Source of the DNA: Sanchytrium tribonematis
Lineage: Eukaryota > Sanchytriomycota > Sanchytriomycetes > Sanchytriales > Sanchytriaceae
Direction of reading: 5' to 3'
Length of the DNA stretch: 35,953 nucleotides
Assembly: GCA_018985235.1 (NCBI GenBank)
Contig: JADGIG010000036.1
Coordinates: 1 to 35,953, forward strand
Of this stretch, positions 2,904 to 33,058 are shown piece by piece. Each line of letters starts with the position of its first letter. Position 1 is the stretch's first letter. A program made the position numbers and the translations under genes. The notes below the pieces were generated by a model. That model did not search any database. It was not told where the DNA came from and worked only from the letters and a program-made list of their open reading frames with translations.

Positions 2904-3437
2904 TTATTGAATTAATAAGAAAAGCAGATATGCGCTCCAAACTAAAGAGAAAGAGGAACTTCTTACACTGCCATCACCACCACTTCCTCCTGGGGTGAAA
3001 AAAGTTATAGGCTTAGAAGAAGAATCTTGAAAAGCTCCTATACAATTTCCAACATTTGACGTTGCTGTGTTGTTATCATGAAGAATTAGATAGTATCCAC
3101 CTGAATTTTGTAAAGTCACAGCTTCACCTGTAACAGCATCTTTGAAGTCAGGACTAGGTTTCCATTTGTATGATGTTGCACTTCCAACCACGGCTATTGT
3201 CTTCTGATTTTTTGGATTACGGTCATTCATCTGAAGCTTGATTGCAACATTTCCAGTGTTCTGGTCACTTGCAAATTCCCATTTTAACTCATATTCGTCA
3301 CCAAATCCAATTAATTCTGATTTATCAGAGCTGGTAGGATCAGGTGCAATCCAAGTTACTAATTGATCACCAGCATCCCTGTTGCACACAAATTGAGTGC
3401 TGTTATCAGCTGCCAATATTGTGAAACTAAAAATCAT
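2904..3437 (-). CDS. Probable secreted, GPI-anchored surface protein
   Basis: A 177-residue protein. Seen: a short hydrophobic N-terminus (MIFSFTILAAD), a middle domain with a beta-rich look and two Cys residues near the ends (FVCNRD and GNCIG), several N-x-S/T sites, a Gly/Ser-rich linker (TPGGSGGDGS) and a hydrophobic C-terminal tail (SLVWSAYLLFLLIQ). That tail after small residues is the hallmark of GPI-anchor addition. The middle part (LVTWIAPDPT, GDEYELKWEF, YKWKPSPDF) resembles fungal wall/surface proteins of the extracellular Ser-Thr-rich/Kre9-Knh1-like kind, but I cannot name it. The signal peptide is short for a real one, so the true N-terminus may lie in an upstream exon; no convincing small intron was found. 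It is divergent from the Rab gene with 171 bp between starts. Confidence 0.7.
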   Translation of the reverse strand: MIFSFTILAADNSTQFVCNRDAGDQLVTWIAPDPTSSDKSELIGFGDEYELKWEFASDQNTGNVAIKLQMNDRNPKNQKTIAVVGSATSYKWKPSPDFKDAVTGEAVTLQNSGGYYLILHDNNTATSNVGNCIGAFQDSSSKPITFFTPGGSGGDGSVRSSSFSLVWSAYLLFLLIQ

Positions 3438-3608
3438 TTGTTAAAGTTATGTGTTTTCGATTAATATCACAAGAAATTAATTAATCACCAATCAAGTCAT
3501 TTTCGTATCAGTCGGATTTGGTATTGATTTGATTGCAATAAATTGGGATTGGGTTTATTACATAGCGAATTGATTTCAAATAAATAAGGAGTAGTTTGAG
3601 TTTCATTT

Positions 3609-4230
3609 ATGTCTAGCGAATACGATTTACTTTTCAAATTGCTTCTTATTGGAGACTCTGGTGTCGGTAAGTCTTGCTTGTTACTCAGATTTGCTGATGA
3701 CACTTACACCGACTCTTATATTAGCACCATTGGCGTGGATTTTAAAATTCGAACTATTTCACTTGAAGGTAAAACAATTAAACTGCAAATATGGGACACA
3801 GCAGGGCAGGAGCGCTTCAGAACAATAACTTCCTCGTACTACAGGGGTGCACATGGTATCATGATCGTTTACGATGTAACTGATATGGATTCTTTCAATA
3901 ACATTAAAGTTTGGCTTCAAGAAATTGACAAGTATGCAAATGAACAAGTCATCAAAGTTTTAATCGGAAACAAAAGTGACTTGAGCAATAAGGTGGTGAC
4001 TTCTGACATGGCACAGCAATTGGCAAAAGATTATAACATGGAATGGATGGAAACGAGCGCAAAAGACAGCAACAATGTTGAAGACTCTTTTTTGCTTATG
4101 GCTAAACAAATCAAAGATAAGATGGCCAATCAGCAACAAACTGTAAATATTGTTAACTTAGGACGATAAGAAGAAAACTATTGACATGAATGCTACCCAA
4201 GTTCAACCAAACGGAGGTGGATGCTGCTAA
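3609..4230 (+). CDS. YPT1: Rab1/Ypt1-type small GTPase, two exons
   Basis: Exons 3609-4142 and 4162-4230 give a 200-residue Rab GTPase that controls ER-to-Golgi transport. Seen: P-loop GDSGVGKS (15-22), switch I Thr40 followed by the Rab motif IGVDFK, WDTAGQE (62-68), NKSD (121-124) and ETSAK (148-152). If the DNA is read without splicing, the frame ends in VNLGR and lacks any prenylation cysteine. Removing the 19-nt segment 4143-4161 continues the frame as DDKKK...GGGCC, the double-cysteine geranylgeranylation signal of Ypt1/Rab1. The hypervariable tail is then of normal length. The CC end is direct evidence that the intron is real. The stop lies 20 bp from the convergent Sft2 stop. Confidence 0.96.
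4143..4161 (+). other. 19-nt spliceosomal intron in YPT1 (phase 0)
   Basis: Sequence GTAAATATTGTTAACTTAG between codons ACT and GAC. Its removal links QQQT to DDKKK and restores the CC prenylation end. Retention leads to a TAA a few bases into exon 2 and loss of the membrane anchor. TTAAC is the candidate branch site with A at position 14. Confidence 0.9.
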
Positions 4231-4250
4231 TAAACTAGTTTACTCGGTAC

Positions 4251-4697
4251 TTATTGAAACATTCTTCCGACAGCTGCTCTCGCATACGGGATATAACTCA
4301 AAGAGTACCAGACCAACGCTAAATACTGAAGTATTATGCAAACAAATACTAGAGCCTTATTCTGTAATACTATTGCCACAACTAGTGTCAAAACCATCAT
4401 TACAATGTAAAGTATAGTCGCTAAGATTCTGCTAGAGGCGAACATACTGCCAAGTTGCCTCTTAAATCCAATGATAAATCCTGTGGAAAATAAACTTATA
4501 ACATTGCCAACGGTATATAGAATTGCAAACAAGCCGACTAGTCCAATTGATAAAAACAAAGTACTTAAAAATGAGATCACGAAACCAGTGATAATGCAAC
4601 CTATAAACGCATACATTCTCTGAGTGTAAGTAAGGCTAAACATTGAGCCTAAATTATCCCTGTCATTAGAACCAACTAGATTTGATAAACTATCCAT
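4251..4697 (-). CDS. SFT2: Sft2-like Golgi membrane protein
   Basis: A 148-residue tetraspan protein of the SFT2/GOT1 group, which acts in vesicle fusion with the Golgi (retrograde endosome-to-Golgi traffic in yeast). Seen: a short polar N-terminus, then four hydrophobic segments, with the family signature between them: TLFLSIGLVGLFAILYTVGN, STGFIIGFKRQLGSMF, RILATILYI, and finally WYSLSYIPYAR near the C-terminus. Length is typical for short fungal Sft2. ATG at 4697 is followed by a hydrophilic stretch, which fits. It lies head-to-tail with the upstream two-TM protein gene (26-39 bp gap) and converges on YPT1, another Golgi-trafficking gene; whether this neighbourhood means anything is unknown. 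Confidence 0.92.
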   Translation of the reverse strand: MDSLSNLVGSNDRDNLGSMFSLTYTQRMYAFIGCIITGFVISFLSTLFLSIGLVGLFAILYTVGNVISLFSTGFIIGFKRQLGSMFASSRILATILYIVMMVLTLVVAIVLQNKALVFVCIILQYLALVWYSLSYIPYARAAVGRMFQ

Positions 4698-4736
4698 ATT
4701 CCTTCCTAAATTCGTGTTTCAAATATGTAAAAAAAT

Positions 4737-5210
4737 TTATTCAATGACCTCAAAAATCGGTTCAGTAGATGGTTTTCGACTACTTGGATTCATTTTTCTG
4801 TCTTTCGGCAAATCCAATTTTGGCTTTTCTGGAGCAATAGGAATTGGTAACAGTACCTTAGGGGATTTTAAAATCATTTCCACTTGTTCTCTCAAATCCT
4901 TGGTTTCTTCCTCTGTGAAATAGGCTCCAGGGTTAAAAGAGTTAGACCGGCTGTTACTCAACTCACCTCTTTCCCTTTGCATCTTCCTGTGAGACTCTTC
5001 CGTATTTGGTTCATTGGATTTACCGATTGACCTTTCCCTCGGAACTAATTTCCAAAAATGATTCATTAAAATCCCAATATTTCCGACCACCAAAAAACCA
5101 GTCAGGATTCCAAAATAAATCCATTTTTTACTTTCCACAGAGTCTGTAGTAAAAATGGTGGCTAACGCAATAGCATATAGGAACAAGGATAAAAATATTT
5201 TTAGCCACAT
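4737..5210 (-). CDS. Small two-TM membrane protein with charged tail, unknown function
   Basis: A protein of 157 residues counted from the ATG at 5210 (MWLKIFLSLFLYAIALA); the frame is open further upstream but has no ATG there. Seen: two hydrophobic segments at about residues 3-20 and 31-50 (YFGILTGFLVVGNIGILMNHF), then a long hydrophilic tail rich in Glu, Lys, Ser and Pro, including PIAPEKPKLDLPKDRK and a charged stretch likely to form a helix (EEETKDLREQVEMI). This topology suggests a small ER or inner-membrane protein with a cytosolic or matrix tail. I do not recognise a family. It is divergent from the glycogen debranching gene with 143 bp between starts. Confidence 0.7.
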   Translation of the reverse strand: MWLKIFLSLFLYAIALATIFTTDSVESKKWIYFGILTGFLVVGNIGILMNHFWKLVPRERSIGKSNEPNTEESHRKMQRERGELSNSRSNSFNPGAYFTEEETKDLREQVEMILKSPKVLLPIPIAPEKPKLDLPKDRKMNPSSRKPSTEPIFEVIE

Positions 5211-5353
5211 TCTGAAAGTGAATGCTAATTTAAGAAAAACATATATATATGATGTGGACAATGACAATTAAACATTACCGACTTTATGCTATGGACATAA
5301 ACTGCTTCTCAAAAATAATTCATTAAATTACTTTTTTCTAGGGTCAAACAAGA

Positions 5354-8300
5354 ATGATGATTTTAGATTTGCAAAACGGCCCAGATTTTGTTCGCCTACT
5401 TACCGACAAATTGACTCTTTTTTCATTTGTAACCGGGAAGCTTTTATTTGATAATGAAAATTATAATATTAGTGTGGATCAGCCGTTAAAGCTTGGGATC
5501 CCGGTTGGTTATCACCGAATTATCTTCTCGAGAAAAAACACTACTAAAGAGATCACCATATTGAGATTATCTTTCCATCCCAGCAAATTGAGAATTCAGA
5601 CAATTATGCCAAAATGGTGTTCAGATTTATCCCAGATTGTCAAAGTTGCCAGAGATTCTCATTTCAATGCAATTCATTTTACTCCACCACAGTTGAGAGG
5701 TGGATCCAACTCTCCTTATAGTATAAAGGACCATCTTGATTGGCATGAGTATAAGGAGCGAGATTTTGTAGGTCTAACTAAAGACTTGCGATATTTCGTT
5801 GATGTGGTATGGAATCACTGTTCCAACGATGCACTTTGGATACGTAAGCATCCCGAGTGTGGCTACAACCTTAAAAATACTCCACATCTCATTCTTGCTT
5901 TCATTGTAGATGAGTGCATTTTACAACTAAGTGAAGAGATTGACGGCCCTTGTGATAATGTGGAGCACATTGTCTACTTACTTAGAGTCAAATTAGAAAA
6001 CAGTGATTTGTTTAAATATCTCGTTGTACACGATACCTCATCTGAAGTTGATAATAAAGCCGTACCCGAAATGAACCGTGAAGATCTCAAGCGTTTTGTG
6101 TTAGACCGCGGGCTAATTCGAAATTACAAGAAAAATGGCACTAAGCTCACCAAGTCGGTTGTTGATTATTTGTCGAAAATGTCTTGGGATCTTGAACATT
6201 TTATTAAAGATGTGAATGACGCTATACTTTTAAACATGAAAGGCGATATTGACGAAATTTGTCAAAATATAACCAATACGCTAAAATATGAGCGACTTGA
6301 TGAAAACGGTCCATTGAAGGGTAACATATCGATAAAATCACCTATTTCTGATACCTATTTTTCTAGATTTGGAAATTCAGAAGAGACAATTATGATAAAT
6401 AATGGTTGGGTCTGGGGAGCAAACCCTCAAGAAAATTTTGTGAAAGACGGATACTACAAAAGAAAAGTGGTAATATGGGGTGATTGTGTCAAATTAAATT
6501 ATGGTGATAAATATGAAGATTGTCCTTACTTATACGATTACATGAGAACTTATACAAACTCCATGGCAAAAATCTTTGATGGATTTCGGATTGACAATTG
6601 CCATTCGACCCCACTGCATGTTGCTAAATATCTATTAACGGAGGCTCGAAAAATTAATCCCGGTCTTTATATTTTTGCTGAATTGTTTACAGGAAATGAA
6701 GATATGGATAAACACTACGTCAGGGAACTAGGGCTTCATTCTTTGATTAGAGAAGCAATGCAATGTTGGGACGCAAATGAATTAGGGAGACTTGTGTGGA
6801 AATATAGTGGGGATCCTCTAGGCAGTTTACATCCTGCTGGCATAACCCACCAGCAATATGACCTGACTCAAAATTTACCAAATGATTGCACAATCTTCAG
6901 CGATCCTCACGCTATATTTTTTGATATGACTCATGACAATGAAACTGTTTCTCAAAAAAAACAAGTGGCAGCATCAGTTGAACAGGCTGCTTTAGTAGCA
7001 TTCAGTTGTGCTGCAATAGGTAGCTCAAGAACTTATGATGAGATTTTGCTGAAGCATGCTAATATCGTTAATGAAAAGCGAATCTATCTTCCAAAACCAT
7101 TTGAAGATCTACAGAGCATTGGGATGTTTAAATTGAGAAGAATATTAAATCAACTTCACGAAACATTAGTAGACTACCCAGAAATATATGTTCATCAAGA
7201 GCACGACATCATACAAGTCAGTAGACTAAACCCTAAAACCCTTAAAGGTTTTCTTCTTGTATGTCGTACAGCATACAAAAATACCCCCTCTTTATCACCA
7301 TGTCTAGATATTCCTATTGAAAAAGGCAGAGTGCTGCCTCGGTATTACTCATATTTATCAGAACTAAATCCTAATTATGACAAGAAATACTTATACGACA
7401 TCGACACCAATTTGACTTTGCAATCTTGGGAGTCAGATATAGAGTCTTCTCTTGAAGAATACCTGAAAAATATTCAGTTGGAGTATCCAGCTTTTCACAT
7501 TTCACACGAGCCGTATCAATTTTCTAAAATACATTTGCATAATAACTTTGCCCCTGGTAGTATTATCATTTTTGAGACTGTCGCCAACGAATGTTTATCC
7601 CCTACTGTTAGACAGCTGGGATTTTTGAATTACCCGATTTCAGAATTGATCATCTCAATATCAGAGCAAAGAGATGTTTTACATGGTATCAGTTTATCGG
7701 AATGCTTAAAAGATATTTCTACACAAGATTTAAATATATTGTTGTATAGAACACACGAGGAAGAACGGGAATACAATGTGGAACCCTACTTGATACCTAA
7801 TTATGGATATTTCAAATATTGTGGACTTCAAGGGATTGTAAGTGCCTTGGAAGAAATTGTTAAATATAATAATTTAGGGCATCCAATTTATCAAAATCTT
7901 ATGCAGGGCAGCTGGTTGATGGACTATGTCATCTATAGAATCCAACAATACCCACATCAGTTACATAGTCTGATTGAATGGTTACGAACTAGATTTTCAT
8001 GTATAAATTTATTACCAAGATACGTAATTCCTCGGTATTTTACCGCCATTATCTTCAGCGTGTATGAAAAAGCAATTGAGTTGTTTGTAGCAAAGTGTCC
8101 CAAATGGGTTGCCAATAGCAATATAATCATTCAAAAATTGACTTTGACAAGTATACAGATGATAGGTCCAACGAAAAGTACTGGTTTGACAAAAACATTA
8201 AATGGAATGGCAGCTGGTCTACCACATTTTGCAGTTCAATATATGAGGTGTTGGGGAAGAGATGTATTCATTAGTTTAAACGGTCTATATACGATTTTGG

Positions 8301-9593
8301 GACAGCAGCAGATTGCAAAGGAGCATATTATTGCATTTGGCAGTACTTTGAAACATGGCTTAATTCCCAACCTTTTAGATAAACAGATAATGCCAAGGTA
8401 CAATTGTAGAGATGCGGTCTGGTTTTGGCTTTACAGTATTCAAAAATATTGTGAAACTTACGATGAATCCATTTTGAAAGAAGAGATTTTGCGAAGATTT
8501 GAAACTGATGAATTTATTCCCATAGAAAATGGGTTTAAACTAAAATATTCACTTATAGACTTAATTATAGAGGCTCTTACGAAACATTTAAACGGCATCG
8601 AGTTTAAGGAATATAACGCAGGCAAAGAGCTTGATCAATGTATGCAAAATTCTGGTTTTCACATCAAAATTGCTACAGACTTAAATGGGCAATTAAGGTC
8701 ATACATTGCTTATCAAAAAAATTATGAAGGAAATCCGACTTCAAATGCTCAAGAAACGGGTTTCATTTATGGAGGTAATAAATGGAATTGCGGAACCTGG
8801 ATGGATAAAATGGGGAGCTTTGATAAAAACTATGGAAAGCCTGCTACTCCTAGAGATGGCGCAGCTATTGAAATTCAAGCATTATTATACAGATCATTGG
8901 TCTGGCTTGGTTCTTTATTTAAAAAGGGCGTCATTAAGCAAAGTGGTGTTTACTTTGGCGAAAAACTTGTCGAATTTGAAAATTGGTCTCAAATCATCAT
9001 GTCTAATTTTGAGAGTATGTTTTATGTACCGTTGGATACAGCCAATCCTCTTGTAAAGCAAAGAGGCTATTACAAAGACACCGTCGGAAGTAGCTCGCCC
9101 CAGAGTGATTATGATGTGAGGCCTAATGTATTTATTGCGATGGTAGTTGCACCAGAGTTATTCAATATGAAGCACTACGCCATTGCCTTGGAGACTGGTA
9201 AATGTTTAATAGGTCCTTTAGGAATGAAAACATTATCAAATCAAGATCCAAAATACAGAGGTTTTTATGACAATAATAATACTTCTGACGTTTCAACTGG
9301 AAAAGGCTGGAATTATCACCAAGGTAATGCCAACTAATGTAGGACCGGAATGGGTTTGGGTGAAAGGTTATTACGAAATGGCTAAATTTCAATTACAAGC
9401 TATGCTTCGTCAGGATATTGAAATAGACTTACAAATTTATAACAATGAACTTGCTAAAAACGAATATAGAGGATTACCCGAATTAACAAACGAAGACGGA
9501 AGCTACTGCTATGATAGCTGCTCCACCCAGGCTTGGAGCGGTGCTACATTATTAGAATTTTTTCACAAGAAATATAAACTTGAAAACAAATAA
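5354..9593 (+). CDS. GDB1: Glycogen debranching enzyme (4-alpha-glucanotransferase / amylo-1,6-glucosidase), two exons
   Basis: Exons 5354-9323 and 9343-9593 encode 1406 residues, slightly short against about 1530 in yeast Gdb1. The enzyme moves maltotriosyl units and then cleaves the alpha-1,6 branch glucose during glycogen breakdown in the cytosol. Seen: N-terminal GH13-type transferase with HFTPPQLRGGSNSPYS, DVVWNH, RIDNCHSTP (Asp414, the nucleophile position), FAELFTGN (Glu443) and MTHDNET (Asp528); C-terminal GH133 glucosidase with RCWGRDVF (Asp970), CRDAVWFW (Asp1020), PRDGAAIEI (1167-1175), and across the splice junction NYHQ|GPEWVW. The region between PYS and DVVWNH is about ten residues shorter than in yeast. 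All catalytic motifs are there, so it should be active. The downstream gene starts only 26 bp after its stop, same strand. Confidence 0.96.
9324..9342 (+). other. 19-nt spliceosomal intron in GDB1 (phase 1)
   Basis: Sequence GTAATGCCAACTAATGTAG. It splits a Gly codon (G|GA) and its removal creates YHQGPEWVW, the invariant motif of the family. Retention gives a stop inside the intron itself (GGT AAT GCC AAC TAA). ACTAAT supplies the candidate branch A at position 14. Confidence 0.93.
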
Positions 9594-9619
9594 ATTTGTT
9601 TCGAAATTGAAAGCTTGAA

Positions 9620-12600
9620 ATGATTGGACACTTTATCAAATCTACAGTTTTTGAAGTCTTCTTCTTGTTGGCTAAAGATAATGAAATAATTGACAAGCTG
9701 GTAGCAATTGGCCACCTGACAGATGTAGTGCAAAACTTGGCATATATTTTTTATTACACAATTCCATGGGGGAATCCTGTTTTCCAAAATATATGCATGT
9801 ATTTGAATTTGAATTTTAAAAACAATGTTGTTTTTGCAATTTCACTGTTATTCATCTTGTTATTCATTTTCAATTTCTCATATTTATGTTGGCAGGTTCA
9901 ATCAAATGGCAGTATACACACCACAAAGATCTTAGCCGTCACGAGGTATCAGTATGGTTTGCTTAGTACTTTACTGTTCTTTCCAACTTTAGAACAACTG
10001 TTAAATAACATAGAATTTGATACAGGCTTGGCATTGTTTATTGCTTTGGTATGTATTATGGTCTTAATTGTCTACTGCATTATTGTTTGCTTAGGGGCAT
10101 TCTTACTATTTTCTCCAACGCCGAATGTGAGATCTCATACAGGTAGAAATAGCCAGAGAATCGATTTATTTGAAATTTTGTTCAAAGTGTTCACTGCAAT
10201 CGGATTTGGATTTTTTGATCCTAAAATAGGATGTTTTGTTCTGCTCCTTGGTTGGACCATCTTGTATACATCCAGTTTCATCGCTCCTGCCTTTTATAAT
10301 TTCTCTAGCAATATTATTAGAAGTGGTTTTTTTCTTGGGCTTTTGATTTCTTCTTTGAGTTCAGTAGCAGTTACTTTTAATCCAAGTCGAAGGTACTATT
10401 CATGTTATTTAATGATTGTTGGATTTATTTTGAGTTCATTAGTTGGAATGATTATCTATTATTTTTACATAAAATCTAGAAAACTACCTCCTGGAATTTT
10501 TTTCTACGCGCTGAAATGCATTGAATCACGAGGGTCAAGTTCAAGTATTAAATATCGAAGTATGCTTCGAAATATAACTGATGAATGGATTAGTACCATG
10601 TGGAGCCCATTGGAAGTTGTGAATGTAATTCAGATACTATGTAATATCGTTTACTCTAAAAATAAGGAAAGTTTTATACACTCCTTGGTCATGAATCAAG
10701 AGGAAGATGAAAATGAAAAAGAGAATGAAGTTTTAGAGGCAGATGTAGTAGAAAAACGAGAGGGGCGAAAAGATGAGAAACTGCTTTACAAAATATCAAT
10801 TAACTTCAATGAGATCGCAAGACTAGTTTGTTTACAAGTGTATGAATCTGGGAAAAACAGATTCGAGACCTCCACATGGATTTCTGCACAATATCTTATG
10901 TTTCTGGAATTTTCAAACGATATATTTCCCAACTTAAAAAACTTGAGGAGTTTGAAATTTCATGCAGAAGAATTATTGAATCGAACGTTTTTAGAGGAAA
11001 AATCAATTGATGTTCATTATGTATTGTTCTCGTTTTACAAAATGAAGGTATTTGAAAAAGCAAGAACTAAAAAAGGATATTTGAAAAAGGTTGTTGATAT
11101 TGTTGCTTTTCAACACGACAAAGATAAATTTATTGAAAATCTTCATCTTGTGATTAATTCTGGAAAACAATTGGTATCCCTTCTTGAAAAAAACCTTTTA
11201 ACATTTGATTTGTTCGTATCTATTTCTTCTGATTTCCAAATGCATTGGAACCTCGCGAAAGAATATTTGAAAAAAGGCCTTAATCGAGAACCGATGTCAG
11301 GGGAGCTTTTGCTCCTGTTCAAAGAGTCAACTTTTATTTTTGATAAAAACAAGGATTTAGGATTTTATCTAAATTCAGTTATGAATGCAAATGCTAGGGC
11401 AAGCGAAGAAAAATTATTGGGAAGTCTAGAAGACAACGAAATAATGATAGAGAAACATAAAAAATCATTATTTCAGACTCGAAATCACCTACCCATGCAC
11501 TTGGCAAGAGTTTATAAATTTTCGGAAGTATTTTTCAGAACACAATTTATTCTAGCATTGTTATTGTACGTATCATTCTTCTGCTTAGTATTGTTCTATT
11601 TGAAAGATCAAGACTTATTTCTTATCAAAGAAAACTATAAAGTTCTGACATACGGAATTAGTTGCCAATCATTTTTTTATAACAAATTTTCTTTTCAATA
11701 TCTTCAGAACAGTTCTTTTTTTCAGGCTTGCGGTGATGACGTTATGTATATGAAGGCTGAATGGAAAGAAATATTGACCTCAGACTATCTCAAGCAATTA
11801 AAACCCAGTCCATTCGAACTAAATGTGACCAACTTTGATAATGATTTGGAGTATACATCATTTGGTATTCAAAATGGCGATTTTCAATGGAATGCGAACA
11901 ATTTTCTAAAAGACACCTCACAGGATATCAATATCAATCAAAATATGGCATTTATTAATCAGAACTATCTAGAGTTTTTTAAATCTATTCACGAGACAAG
12001 TGAATCTAAGTTTGACGCATTACTGGCCAAATTTTTGGTTTATTTTGGCGCTTTCTACTTTTTATTAATTGTCTCTCTATTTCCCATGAGTTACTATCTC
12101 TACAATTCTATTAAGCTGGATATGTATTTGAGATTTATGTAGGAAGGTAGATGAAAATTGTTTTTCGTATTCACAAGAAGCTATTAGGTTTAAATTTGAC
12201 CTTGACTATCTGTACCAAATAAGCCTAAAAACCGTTGACAAGTGGTCAAAAGCCACGTCTGAGTATGTGCAGACTTATGATATAACCCGAAATCTCAAAT
12301 TGAAACTTCTAATTCTATTAATGTTATATTTAGGATCTGCAGGAGTAGCATATTATATTCAAAATAGTGCTAGTGATTTATTAGGAAGATACTATGATGC
12401 CGCAGTTTGGATGAGAGTGAGGACATACTACGATTATGCACTTATCTCAAGTGCATCCTACTTTGTGCAAATGCAGCTTAGTAACAATAGCCAGGATATC
12501 ATCCTGAGGGCAAAAAATGCCATGATTTATAATCTCGAGGCTCATAAAAATGTAACCTCATCATTTTTTAAAGGATTGACAGTAGAGGGAGTTTCTATAT

Positions 12601-13055
12601 TGAATGGCACTTCACCTGCAGAGTTCTGGAATATGGAAGATACCAAATTGTATTTTGGCAATAATTGTGTAGAACTGACCAATTGCAACTCTCCTGTACT
12701 TGGTCATCGTGGAATAATGATGACCTCTAAATTATTAAAGTCTATCAGCAATTTGCAGTGGAGTGATGACATAGTTCTTTACCAATTGTCAATTCTTGAA
12801 TCTTCACGATATCTTGATTCCCAATTACGCTTTCTAGAAAAAATTGATATTGAATTCGAGAGTAGATACCAATTTGTAGAAGACGCGTGTGGTTTTATGA
12901 TTGGAATTTGCATTTTGATGCTACTAGTTGTTTACAAATTGTCCATGAGAACCATTAAGCAACTCGCTAGAACTCATAATCGAATAAAAATATTGAAGGA
13001 GATATGTGTCGGAACAGCGGTTGGCCAGGAATCTCTCAAGAATATTGCTGAATAA
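9620..13055 (+). CDS. TmcB-like multi-membrane protein, two exons
   Basis: Exons 9620-12123 and 12143-13055 give 1138 residues. Seen: about six hydrophobic segments in residues 60-290, a long soluble middle with acidic low-complexity part (NQEEDENEKENEV) and a helical-repeat-like element (PMSGELLLLFKEST), a TM near 645-667, a polar loop, a TM near 800-825, then after the splice another TM (LKLLILLMLYLGSAG), a loop with N-glycosylation sites and a last TM (GFMIGICILMLLVVY). This architecture matches the Tiny macrocysts TmcB/TmcC-like family found in Dictyostelium and zoosporic fungi, often sensory or cyclase-linked; here no cyclase or kinase domain follows. Function unknown. Without splicing the gene looks like two separate reading frames; the 19-nt intron joins them via an ATG codon split AT|G. 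Confidence 0.8.
12124..12142 (+). other. 19-nt spliceosomal intron in the TmcB-like gene (phase 2)
   Basis: Sequence GTATTTGAGATTTATGTAG. Removal joins ...SIKLDM to KVDENCFSY and keeps one frame open for a further 300 codons. The intron's own terminal TAG is the stop codon if it is retained. TTTAT places an A at position 14, as in the other two introns, but this branch site is weaker. Confidence 0.85.
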
Positions 13056-16139: not shown

Positions 16140-18008
16140 ATGCCATCTCTTCAATCTTCTCCCAAGAAGGGAAATCTGGATAGTCTATTATTAACTCAAA
16201 TGAATACTCGTATGGAGAGTACAAATGAAAAATATGGAACTTGCATTAATGTATTTATTAAATTTTGTAATGAGAATGAATTCGATTATGAAACGATTTC
16301 AAATCGAACACCCGTCATTATTGCTGGCTTTCTTGAGTATGTTTCTTTTGTCAGAGCTAATAAAGTGTTGAAAGATACATCCTGTGTTTCCTATATTAAT
16401 GCAATAAAGATGTTTATCGAGATAAGTTATTTTGCGATTGGGATATGGCTCTGGAACCATCTCTGTACCTGAAGGAACAAATTAATAAAATATCAAGTTT
16501 AAAAGATGCCGAGGATCAGTCTGAAAGTGATCATTTAGATGACTTGTTAGAATCTGAGTTTGGTGCATTTGCACTGGAAATTAGGCAAATTCCATTAAAA
16601 GAAGACAGTAGAGAATTAAAAGGCGATCCATTTAGTTCAAGATTCTTAAAACGATTTTGCAGTGGAATCCAAAGAGAATTAGCTAGGTTGGATAAAAATA
16701 AAAAATCAGCCAATATTTTTACTGTAAATGATTTGGTGCAGATTGAAGAATCATGGAACTTGTCAACTGTTTGTAATGGTGAATTGCTGTATTTAAAAAC
16801 ATTTATTTTAACTGGTTTTTGGTTGTGGTTAAGATTTAACGATTTACAAAAATTACAATGGGAATCTATAAAAAGAAATTTGCTAGATGTAGAACTAGAC
16901 ACCACATTTAAATATCACAAGATTTTCCTACATGCCAGAAAACATGATGACTCTACAACAATAAGAAATTTATATAAACGAGTACATAAATCTGAATTGC
17001 CATTTTGTGTATTTAACTGTTTAAATTTACTTAAAGAATATGTATCAAAAAATAGAGAGATCAAGGATACAGATTTAGTGTTTCCTAATTATAAAATAGA
17101 GAAAAATTGTTTATTAATTAGCGATTTCACCCAACATTTGGAATCTAGATTCTTTTGTGGTACTTTAATCTAATATAGGTCGAATAAATAAATTACTAAT
17201 TGAAGTAGGAGTATCCGACGGTAATAAGTATACAACCCATGCTATGCGTCGCAGTCAATATATGGTATTTTTTGCACCAAATACACTTACTTTGGATGCA
17301 GAGGCAAACTTTGGTGGATGGGGTGAGGGTTTATCGGGGAAACGTATGTTGAGTGTGTATTTGATTAATAACTCCTTGGATAGTGATTTGGCAATTACAG
17401 ATGGTTTGAGACCAACCCCTCGTCTAATGGAACACAAATATTTTCTAAATATGACACCAATTCCAATTGCAATCAGATAAAATGCATGTTAGAAGAGTTT
17501 AAGAATGAGTTAATTAGTGCTCTTGTAGGTAAAATTGTAGTTGCCACGACATTAGATCATGAAAATACACCAAATGAAAGTAATCGGGGTGTTACAAGGG
17601 ACACTTTAGAAAATTTAAATTTAGAAGCAGGTTTGGCAGAGACTCAATGCCCTTTAATACCTAAAAGTACCTTCAAAACATGTAATGCCTGCTAATTTGC
17701 TCTTCTTTCATATTACAATCAAGGGGTTTAACGAGCAAATATTTCTCAAATACACCAAATTGGACAAATGTTTATTTCATTTTGTACCAATCGTCAATTG
17801 GGGGGATAATATGGTTGTTACTAAGACATTGAGTAATCGTATTAGAAAAAGAATGAGAATTCTTGAGTATTTCCAAACAAGAGGTGAGGATCAGTACATG
17901 GAATTAACATCGGGTATGACAGCTGCACAAATTCCATTATTAATTTCACTACCAAGAAAAATGCGGGAAGGAAATCAAGAAAGAAGTCTACTTCATCACT
18001 TGAGTTAG
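16140..18008 (+). pseudogene. Tyrosine recombinase (Crypton-type) in several frames
   Basis: A site-specific DNA recombinase of the integrase/Crypton class. Starting ATG at 16140 (MPSLQSSPKKGNLDSLL). Seen: a core-binding-like N-terminal domain (YGTCINVFIKFCNENEFDY, VSYINAIKMF), a frameshift near 16415 to YRDKLFCDWDMALEPSLY, then TGFWLWLRFNDLQKLQW with the first catalytic Arg (16832-16834); another frame break near 17165; then THAMRRSQYM with His (17238-17240) and Arg (17247-17249), FGGWGEG with the Trp, and VYLINNS with the candidate Tyr (17358-17360). A C-terminal extension follows in two more frames (EEFKNELISALVGK; NWGDNMVVTKTLSNRIRKRM) up to 18008. The catalytic residues R, H-x-x-R, W, Y are all present, but at least four frame breaks make it dead. 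Confidence 0.75.
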
Positions 18009-28896: not shown

Positions 28897-29439
28897 AGGG
28901 TGAAAGAAATGTTGCTTGAAGATATGCTATACTTTGGGACAGATATGGTGAAATTTAAGGTATAATTTGATAACATAGGAATTTATTGAAGATAGATTAT
29001 TAAATCACTTGGATATAGACTACATAAAAGCATCTTATTTGGGTATTCCAGGTAGATTGAATAATATCTTGACTCGAGGTAGTAGGGCATATACAATAAA
29101 TAGTTCGCTAGTTATTTTAATTGTAATGAAAGCGAGTTGAAGGGTAAAAATTTGGGGAACGTAGTTTAAAAGATTTATTGAATGCACTTTACACAATTGA
29201 ATGATTTAATTATTAATAAGGATGGAACCATCATTTAGAAACGATTAAGAGGTAGTAGAACGCTTCTTCCATCAAATTCATATGAAATTCTAGTGTTGAA
29301 AGTGACAGATTTCATGCAGAGGTGCTTTTATCTCCTTCAAATGACTCCGCGCCAATTCAAAATTTTCGCGATACAGCCAAAATCAGACCTTCACGACCGG
29401 ATATTACTCATCATGCTGTCAAATATGATCAGGAAATTC
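28897..29439. other. Gene-free stretch
   Basis: AT-rich with only short frames. A few residues (YIKASYLGIPGRLNNILTRG near 29020) look protein-like but cannot be assigned. Confidence 0.4.
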
Positions 29440-30340
29440 CCCATTTGCAGAAAAATTACCTCAGAATCTCTTATTTAAATATAGACGGCATTCCCGCAAA
29501 ACAAAGATCTGTTGCTCCAATGATGGATTTTTCTCAATCAGATATTATCATATATGGAGAAGCCAAAGCAGCACGTTAAAAATCATTAGACCCAGCCATT
29601 GTATTTAAGACAGAGACTGAGAATCATCAATATGGTCTTTGCGTTGCTTTGAACAGGAAATATAAAAATCAAGTGCTTTCTATAAGATATTTTTTACCTT
29701 ATCATCTCCGAATTTGGAATATTGGTAATTACATTTAAAATTAAATTGCCAAAATCTTTTATTATCGGTGACTCAAACAAGTCTATTTTAAAAGAAATTG
29801 CACCTGGTTCATATAAACTTGGGAAAGACATGCTTTCTAGCTATTCTACGGATCTCAAACAACTCAATAAAGAGCTAGATGATGAAACACTGGTCAATTC
29901 ATGAAACCCCAAACTGGACAACCCAGTAACATTATATGATCAAAAGACTTGATAAGAAAAGAACTACGTTCCAAGTGGACCAAAGATTATCCCACGCATT
30001 TCAATCAAGAGTTCGTAAATGCTCCAAATCATTTCGCATTTGTGATCTTGTATAAAATTAAAAGAAGTGGTAAACCACAAGGTGTATAAAATTAAAAGAA
30101 GTGGTAAACCACAAGGTGAAGATCTGGTCGATAAAGAGATGCTCCATGTGTGTTCAGCTCGTTATATAGCATTAACCAGTCCAGTACTTGGGATTTAAAA
30201 TCTCGGCTACTGGATTGAATCTTAATCAACTAGTACAAAGTAATCTCAAGGCTGCCCGTCACCGAGTGAAAGCATTGGTCAGGTTCGGTATTGATATTGA
30301 AAAACCATCGTATAATTTAGGGTGTTATCATTGCCACTGA
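29440..30340 (+). pseudogene. Non-LTR retrotransposon relic: AP endonuclease and post-RT part
   Basis: Begins with an APE-type endonuclease N-terminus, LRISYLNIDGIPAKQRS and DIIIYGEAK (the Asn and Glu of the xxNxxG...E motif), a TAA, then YGLCVALNRKYKNQ and, after a shift, FGILVITFKIKLPKSFIIGD followed by SN, the GDxN motif. From 30040 it carries KIKRSGKPQGEDLVDKEML and, after shifts, LGYWIES and GLNLNQLVQSNLKAARHRVK with ALVRFGIDIEKPS, like the region downstream of the LINE reverse transcriptase. The reverse transcriptase itself is missing, so an internal deletion is likely. Confidence 0.6.
30051..30118 (+). repeat. Perfect 34-bp tandem duplication
   Basis: Units 30051-30084 and 30085-30118 are identical; each contains the palindrome GTGGTAAACCAC shifted by one base. 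The unit is not a multiple of 3, so it adds to the frame damage of the LINE relic around it. Confidence 0.9.
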
Positions 30341-31050
30341 TACCTTTGATAGTAAAATACAGTTCTAACAACATAACAGCATTTTCTATTTCTATGGTAA
30401 ATGAGGCATTTTCGCACTTATCATAGGCAGTAAGAAAGCTAGGCCATATGCGTGCACATTCTGACCTATCAAATATGAAAACATGTTTTAAAACAAGGCT
30501 ATAAACGGCTATAATAAATAAATGAATTGAACATTAAAAATTGATAATTTTACTATTAAATGTAAGAAAAATGTAATATTTTAAGTTGTAATGTGTCCTA
30601 GTGCTTGCGATTGGTCTTTTAATAGTTAAATTAGCTATATTTAATATATTATTTTGTTGTTTTCACAGTAGCAAAGTCACTATAGATTTTAAAAAGTTAC
30701 TAATAATAAATAGAAGACTAATGACACCCTCAAGCTAATTAATTTGTCAATTTTATTTTATTTTATATAGTCACTATAGATAAACAAAACACTTGAAGTT
30801 TTGCAGTTACTTTAATAAGCTATATGGATATAATACAATGGACTCGTATTATTCATTGTACTTCTACGTTGATGTTGCATCACTCCCAATTCTGTTATAA
30901 AAGCCTTCAAAATAACACAAACAAAAGCTGAAATTTTGCATAATACTAATAAAACATTTATTTTAAATTTGTATGTTAAATAACTCCGGCAAGGATGTTT
31001 CAAATTTAACAAAAGTTTGAAATTTTTTCCTAGTCTATTTATTGACTATT
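30341..31050. other. AT-rich spacer
   Basis: No gene seen. The 13-mer AGTCACTATAGAT occurs twice in direct orientation (near 30674 and 30769). The right edge at 31048-31050 (ATT) is the target duplication of the Harbinger element. Confidence 0.5.
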
Positions 31051-31065
31051 AGAGTGTTTGCGATT
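31051..31065 (+). repeat. Left TIR of the Harbinger element
   Basis: AGAGTGTTTGCGATT, perfect reverse complement of 32488-32502. Confidence 0.88.
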
Positions 31066-31182
31066 GACGCTTACAAATAAATTTTCAAAATGTTTGGAAA
31101 TACCCCTTTGTATCTCCTTTAAATTTTTGGAAAATCACGTGAAAATAACCCAGTTTTGAAAATCCAATTTGCAAATTTTAAA

Positions 31183-32322: not shown

Positions 32323-32487
32323 GGTAATGGAAATTAAAGTCAAATGACGGAAAAGCATCTGTATGCCAAACCCCAAAACCCCAATAAAGCAAATTTTATT
32401 ATTTTTACAATAATTTTCGAATCGCAAAGATGGAGCAAGGATTTTCAAATAAATTTTCAAACCATTTGAAACTGATTTGAAATTTCA

Positions 32488-32502
32488 AATCGCAAACACT
32501 CT
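32488..32502 (-). repeat. Right TIR of the Harbinger element
   Basis: AATCGCAAACACTCT, perfect reverse complement of 31051-31065. Confidence 0.88.
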
Positions 32503-33058
32503 ATTTGCTAGCTTAAAGTAATAAAAGGATAATAAAAACGTTATTTGTTATCACTTAAGAAGTAAAAACTCCAAAATGTTGCAAATTGACTGTGGACTTT
32601 CAAAACTCAGTTGTTGGAGTGCTAATTAGTTCCTTTTATAGCTTTTTAATTACATCTGCCAATAGGTATGTTGTCTTACATAACTTGATTAATGACATAT
32701 AGATCATGAAACAAAATGTTAATATTCATTTTATTTTCGACCAATCATAAAAAAGAAACTAAATTTCACAAGCGGATTTTGTACAAAATAAATTATTTTA
32801 CTTCAAAAATTATAAAATTTTGTCCCACCGTTCAGTCACTTAAAGGAGCAATTGTCCTACTAAAGTCAAGGAATTTAAATTTTATTTGCGATAGGGTGAA
32901 ACATGTTAAAATTTCTAACCCTTCGCATAGCGGCGAAAAAAAGTAAAAACAAGTTAACAACAGTCCCCAGTGGTAGATTTGACTTAGATATATATACAGA
33001 TGACGATTGCTGACAATATTTTAGATTCTTAAAAGAAGACATCATTTTACTGTTTGAT
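32503..33058. other. AT-rich spacer
   Basis: An open plus-strand stretch at 32716-32946 (KINYFTSKIIKFCPTVQSLK) has no recognisable motif. Nothing else seen. Confidence 0.45.

Follow-up and report, generated by a model that had tools for sequence, protein, structure and literature searches.

Why should three otherwise intact genes each carry a single break in their reading frame? This question is raised by the window, the whole 35,953-nucleotide (nt) stretch of Sanchytrium tribonematis DNA analyzed here, which is contig C242 of an assembly of 6.34 Mb in 311 contigs. A preliminary description, made from the sequence alone, had proposed that each break is solved by removing an intron of exactly 19 nt and that these introns might belong to a genome-wide ultrashort class. 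We found that the observation is real, is not limited to the window, and is widespread in the sampled genome. The 19-mers are almost certainly ordinary GT-AG spliceosomal introns that have been reduced to one length.

The three 19-mers are present on the forward strand where they had been placed, in phases 0, 1, and 2, and spliced translation restores the protein features claimed for each of them. The first, GTAAATATTGTTAACTTAG (4143–4161, phase 0, proposed branch A at 4156), lies between the exons of a Ypt1/Rab1-like gene (3609–4142 and 4162–4230, forward strand). By sequence, motif search, and spliced translation, its removal restores the Rab frame and a product ending in the prenylation-type tail GGGCC; the Pfam Ras family match (216.6 bits) covers residues 10–169, and the junction, at residue 178, is beyond it. 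The second, GTAATGCCAACTAATGTAG (9324–9342, phase 1, proposed branch A at 9337), lies in a Gdb1-like glycogen debranching enzyme gene identified by spliced translation, Pfam, and PDB comparison (exons 5354–9323 and 9343–9593, forward strand), which after removal reads WNYHQ/GPEWVW, the slash marking the junction. The Pfam GDE_C domain extends over this junction, and a PDB match range of 784–1399 covers it at residue 1323, as a range only, the displayed alignment ending earlier. The third, GTATTTGAGATTTATGTAG (12124–12142, phase 2, proposed branch A at 12137), falls in a gene for a TmcB-like membrane protein, identified by spliced translation and its relatives (exons 9620–12123 and 12143–13055, forward strand), and taking it out gives a single continuous protein. 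The shared motif, GTAN8TNAYNTAG, has five matches in the window compared to 0.53 expected from shuffles, and none of 100 shuffles reached five.

A narrow length class across the genome

The wider scan covered the window plus 200 kb from nine other contigs, 235,953 bases in all or about 4% of the assembly, with a G+C (GC) content of 35.0%. We searched for GT..AG segments of 9–80 nt whose removal fuses two open stretches, each no shorter than 45 codons and together at least 140, where the frame closes within 40 codons if the segment is kept. This frame-break scan returned 33 segments at 19 nt and 16 at 20 nt, and six control end-pairs gave 5–20 and 6–15, respectively. With GTA..TAG ends, there were 18 cases at 19 nt, five at 20 nt, and one at 21 nt, compared to 0–3 at every other length from 9 to 80 nt. 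The motif GTA..TNAYNTAG, counted independently of any frame, occurred 34 times at 19 nt, nine at 20 nt, twice at 18 nt, and four times at 21 nt, over a background with a mean of 3.28 and a maximum of seven across 47 other lengths between 12 and 60 nt; at 19 nt, 40 first-order Markov resamplings had a mean of 3.05 and a maximum of eight. No excess of this motif was seen at 21–60 nt, a count that leaves longer introns with other motifs outside it. Small humps at 34 nt (23 cases) and 55 nt (22 cases) in the loose GT..AG scan were read as noise, because only one and two of these cases, respectively, have GTA..TAG ends and eight of the 23 segments of 34 nt share bases with a 19-mer from the frame-break list.

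The suspected genome-wide class is thus borne out by a sharp peak at 19 nt. On about 4% of the assembly, introns under about 22 nt within a length span of 1–3 nt form an ultrashort single-length class. The word "exactly" holds for the window introns; genome-wide, a minority are 20 nt long (the five in the frame-restoring GTA..TAG set). Counts over the entire assembly are 781 for the 19-nt motif compared to 331 for a reversed-pattern control, and 177 for the 20-nt motif compared to 250. Taking the rate at other lengths as background, about 690 real introns of 19 nt and about 90 of 20 nt are estimated, and taking the reversed control, about 450 and none; we treat the two estimates as bounds on the intron number.

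The anatomy of these introns was examined in 23 19-mers picked only by the frame break and GTA..AG ends, with no filter on the branch. The motif noticed in the window (GTA, T12, A14, Y15) reappears in this unselected set, with Y11 in 22, T12 in 22, A14 in 21, and Y15 in all 23, and TAG as the final triplet in 18; the two 19-mers without A14 may be chance passes. Among seven 20-mers picked likewise, five hold the motif at an unchanged distance from the 3′ end, which places the extra base between the 5′ site and the branch point. After the branch A, five nucleotides remain to the 3′ end in 21 of the 23 19-mers and five of the seven 20-mers. Intron positions 4–6 are mostly A or T but variable, so that GTA remains the main 5′ signal, and the AT content of 44 19-mers is about 80%.

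The introns are also unevenly placed along genes. Of 52 distinct 19- and 20-nt introns in complete open reading frame (ORF) pairs, taken from the 236-kb sample and loci L001–L020 and L030, 48 lie in the 3′ half of the protein, with a median position of 0.82 (p = 1.3e-10), in a set that includes motif-selected loci, takes the first ATG as the start, and misses introns beside very short end exons. Within the 236 kb alone the proportion is 36 of 38, and it is 26 of 28 among junctions with the branch motif. Before one duplicate was removed, none of 53 introns had fewer than 45 codons upstream and 19 had fewer than 45 downstream. Of the 81 motif matches examined for this set, 16 had ORFs that were too short, none of them with over 53 codons downstream, and a further 12 had an ORF that ran off its sequence, among them one with 25 codons before the intron and at least 113 after it; both groups were left out. 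Intron-poor genomes usually show a 5′ intron bias. The bias here is the opposite, which poses a puzzle of its own for intron-loss models.

Two further motif matches in the window lie outside the three genes. The first, at 17160–17178 (forward strand, phase 1), is a probable fourth 19-nt intron that would join two mobile element-like ORF pieces (16400–17173 and 17169–17480). These pieces had no Pfam match and were labeled recombinase-like by eye only; it seems as if a mobile element had adapted to the introns of its host. The second, at 28960–28978 (forward strand), is a motif match only, in decayed repeat-like DNA, and its 19-mer recurs identically at C23:13557–13575, which suggests a repeat carrying the motif. 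The window from 13,000 to 35,953 consists of short broken ORFs and repeat-like features, unlike the compact, gene-dense first 13 kb, and includes inverted 35-nt arms (31050–31084 and 32469–32503) and a 34-bp tandem duplication (30049–30116).

Restored proteins and intron sites in relatives

The proteins restored by removal were followed through a list of 28 junctions with the branch motif in a segment of 19 nt (22 junctions), 20 nt (five), or 21 nt (one). Pfam was run on 19 of the 28 proteins and on the Rab, some of them cut to no more than 350 residues on each side of the junction, and in 11 of these 20 spliced proteins a domain over its cut-off crosses the junction. These are ornithine decarboxylase, two proteasome alpha subunits, CAP, glutamate decarboxylase, and an E1 dehydrogenase in the first batch (six of ten) and anoctamin, a choline transporter, FH2, Vps11, and Gdb1 in the second (five of ten); in the remaining nine, the junction is outside any over-cut-off domain. 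Compared with PDB, all five proteins tried (Gdb1, calcineurin, a PP2A-like phosphatase, GAPDH, and ETF-QO) have a match range that includes the junction, and the junction residues are displayed aligned to structures in the last three, Gdb1 and calcineurin being covered as ranges only. The GAPDH junction, TATQKTVD/GPSGKDW, aligns gap-free to a solved structure, as does that of ETF-QO, QNCVHCK/TCDIKDPSQNINW, where the intron is 20 nt long. By eye, a GATA-type zinc finger (NESP/EWRKGP) and a Ras-like protein (SAK/A...CCVIA) are likewise restored.

Relatives from ENA and EukProt were compared as proteins rather than DNA, and their intron sites were judged from read-through protein tails. A Gdb1 relative, P0002 (ENA, 47% identical), ends in WNYHQG-KLQLIK-DRNGCG, and its final six residues, read one frame over, can encode GPEWVW. 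The six residues KLQLIK back-translate to a 20-nt segment, in which the branch motif is possible if the end is AAG, not TAG. This tail implies a putative 20-nt intron at the site and phase of the window Gdb1 intron. A second relative, P0003 (EukProt), runs through the site with NYHNGPEWTW. The Gdb1 tree pairs P0002 with P0003 (100/98) and puts the window outside that pair, in a trio grouped at 100/100, and because of this topology intron loss in P0003 would be the simplest reading. The trio stands on a long branch, and this tree does not give its placement within fungi. Of 2093 Gdb1 matches, 120 were listed; apart from one fish, every named organism in that list is a fungus or an aphelid, and the names that come first, Sorochytrium and Paraphysoderma, belong to Blastocladiomycota.

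For the TmcB-like family, seven proteins pass an E value of 0.001 among the 8000 best candidates scored, including the window's own; all seven come from the window, ENA, or EukProt, and one of them, P0245, matches TPR_TmcB below the cut-off. The ORFs of P0246 and P0247 stop at the window junction, while P0242–P0245 run through it. For roughly the first 290 residues, P0246 and P0247 hardly differ, and they may be paralogs of one genome, which would count as one lineage. Back-translation of the P0247 tail, YFIFI followed by a stop, gives 19 nt, and all versions with TAG as the stop (72 of 216) match GTAN8TNAYNTAG; in a random-tail control, 37 of 20,000 tails could encode the 19-nt motif. From these tails, two of the three window introns, those of Gdb1 and TmcB, are judged to be kept at the same site in relatives. 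The EukProt protein P0124, which shares 99% identity with the glutamate decarboxylase encoded on contig C44, also stops 19 read-through residues past its junction.

Splicing machinery and alternative explanations

The preliminary description had pointed to the U1, U2, and U2AF genes as a check. A U2-like gene scores over its cut-off (115.9 bits) and carries the usual GTAGTA, a U1-like gene on C152 begins ATACTTACCT, and the best U2AF65-like match stays below its cut-off. A U6-like gene (61.8 bits, cut-off 44) and a Prp8 PROCN domain (697.6 bits, in an open frame of 2239 amino acids) were also found. The features tested, namely GT-AG ends, the branch motif, the restored proteins, and the spliceosome genes, support reading the 19-mers as spliceosomal introns. 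They have the features of the U2 type in each respect; GT..AG ends were a selection criterion of the scan and so were judged against other end-pairs (33 at 19 nt compared to 5–20).

Several results weigh against this reading. The U1 match, at 43.7 bits, is below the Rfam cut-off of 69.5. No U2AF65-like gene over the cut-off was found in the assembly (best match 51.6 bits, cut-off 310.3), and neither were SF1-HH or U5, in searches that matched in no control genome either. In addition, the loose GT..AG count at 20 nt barely exceeds that of the control end-pairs (16 compared to 6–15), and the reversed-pattern control gives a higher background, by which the 20-nt motif has no excess.

Assembly or sequencing artefacts, or pseudogene insertions, could also break frames by chance. 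The published sanchytrid assemblies were made in single-cell mode (PMC8371127), and the window does hold short broken ORFs from 13 kb on. However, such accidents would not yield one common length with GT..AG ends and a branch motif, nor would relatives carry them at matching codons and in matching phase, and the broken genes include those of GAPDH, ETF-QO, proteasome subunits, and calcineurin. We regard this explanation as very improbable. Less probable still is elimination at the DNA level as in ciliate germlines, in which the segments would be cut from the genome and not from RNA. The segments are short and AT-rich and have TA near both ends, but by our reasoning a TA-to-TA excision would take 15 of the 19 nt and the frame would stay broken, whereas GT-AG excision restores the proteins exactly. 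The branch motif has no known role in such elimination, and genes of fungal type are present: a homocitrate synthase that passes the LysS_fung_arch cut-off and, at 2907–3440 of the window (reverse strand), a Kre9/KNH-like domain (29.3 bits, cut-off 24.6), presumably of the fungal cell-wall type. Equally remote are elements that ribosomes hop over in translation, such as the bypassing elements of some yeast mitochondria, which would likewise leave DNA frames broken but would not account for GT..AG ends and a U2-type branch motif in a genome with U1-, U2-, and U6-like RNAs and Prp8.

For spliceosomal introns of this length, the design in most cases would be a GTA 5′ splice site, a TNAY branch with five nucleotides after its A, and TAG at the 3′ end. 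U2 would pair with the branch site, and the AG ending five nucleotides past the branch A would be the acceptor used. Because little beyond GTA is left for U1 pairing, the 5′ site would be located largely by its 13-nt distance. That the 19- and 20-mers are spliced in the cell, and in this manner, is what we infer from the sequence features.

A separate profile search of the assembly found no EF-1alpha over the cut-off. The best match of that family (G000:C164:35795-37064) is split over two frames, with 195.1 and 114.1 of 540.1 bits.

Comparison with known short-intron systems

The preliminary description had named chlorarachniophyte nucleomorphs and Stentor as lineages with introns this short. 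Both stand, and mikrocytids, with introns of 16–17 nt, must be added (PMC10245619, as excerpted). The remarks on published systems below likewise draw on excerpts of the papers cited. In the heterotrich ciliate Stentor, introns are 15–16 nt long and the branch A is nearly always the 10th nucleotide of 15 or the 11th of 16 (PMC9505925). The present class resembles it in having one narrow length, a standard genetic code, and five nucleotides after the branch A, whereas Stentor introns are 4 nt shorter between the 5′ site and the branch, their branch consensus is not strong, and their host is a ciliate (PMC9505925). A heterotrich host was considered for the window and rejected, given introns of 19–20 nt and the named Gdb1 matches listed above. 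Chlorarachniophyte nucleomorph introns, at 18–21 nt, have an equal length range (PMC10245619, PMC2483917, PMC2222250), but those of B. natans are described, in the excerpted text, as having no branch-point signature (PMC2483917), whereas TNAY is nearly fixed here, and the present introns are in a main nuclear genome. A nucleomorph origin was rejected for a genome of 6.34 Mb with metabolic and cell-wall-type genes. Mikrocytids (Rhizaria) share with sanchytrids a very narrow intron length, a conserved intron sequence, and life as intracellular parasites; they differ in their shorter introns, in number (224 predicted in M. mackini compared to several hundred estimated here), and in belonging to an unrelated lineage (PMC10245619).

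Closer to fungi, dicyemids are parasites on the opisthokont branch whose introns are also short and uniform (mean 26.2 ± 1.9 nt, 16 reported; PMC2222250), but these are about 7 nt longer (PMC2222250) and, as far as the excerpt goes, are without a branch-point signature (PMC2483917). In Cryptococcus neoformans, introns average 56 nt, a small population falls in the 20–40-nt bin, and those under 40 nt are poorly spliced (PMC11913375); introns of the microsporidian E. cuniculi average 35.8 nt (PMC2483917). A short population thus exists in Cryptococcus, but unlike in the other fungi compared, 19 nt is the main class here. Trichomonas introns reach down to 23 nt (PMC12316389). We found no report of a fungal 19-nt intron class among the matches listed in the open-licence literature on short introns in general, in microsporidia, and in sanchytrids, several of these lists giving a part of the matches (40 of 103, 40 of 91, and 12 of 21).

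Two sanchytrids were published as assemblies of 10.5 and 11.2 Mb with GC contents of 36.27 and 34.64%, made with SPAdes in single-cell mode, with proteins predicted by TransDecoder on the contigs (PMC8371127, Galindo et al. 2021). The word "intron" occurs once in PMC8371127, within a reference title, and not at all in PMC9616733. The class was probably overlooked because the published genes were read without looking for introns.

The 19-mers are a new, fungal, member of the ultrashort-intron class. We consider it probable, with less assurance than their spliceosomal nature, that the introns of a fungal phylum have collapsed to 19 nt (rarely 20), in a reduction separate from those of ciliates, mikrocytids, and nucleomorphs, with the branch locked five nucleotides from the 3′ end as in Stentor and with introns placed near gene 3′ ends, opposite to the usual bias. 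If so, proteins in the published sanchytrid proteomes would be cut short at hundreds of sites, with consequences for the gene losses inferred from these proteomes. Annotation of the phylum by ORFs would hide introns and shorten proteins, which also matters for the phylogenies built from these proteins. Sanchytrids would be a fourth, fungal, lineage on the very short list of those whose spliceosome copes with introns no longer than about 20 nt. That a fungus and Stentor share a five-nucleotide spacing from branch to acceptor suggests a geometric constraint common to both, and these introns may provide a new case for the question of the smallest intron that the splicing machinery can handle.

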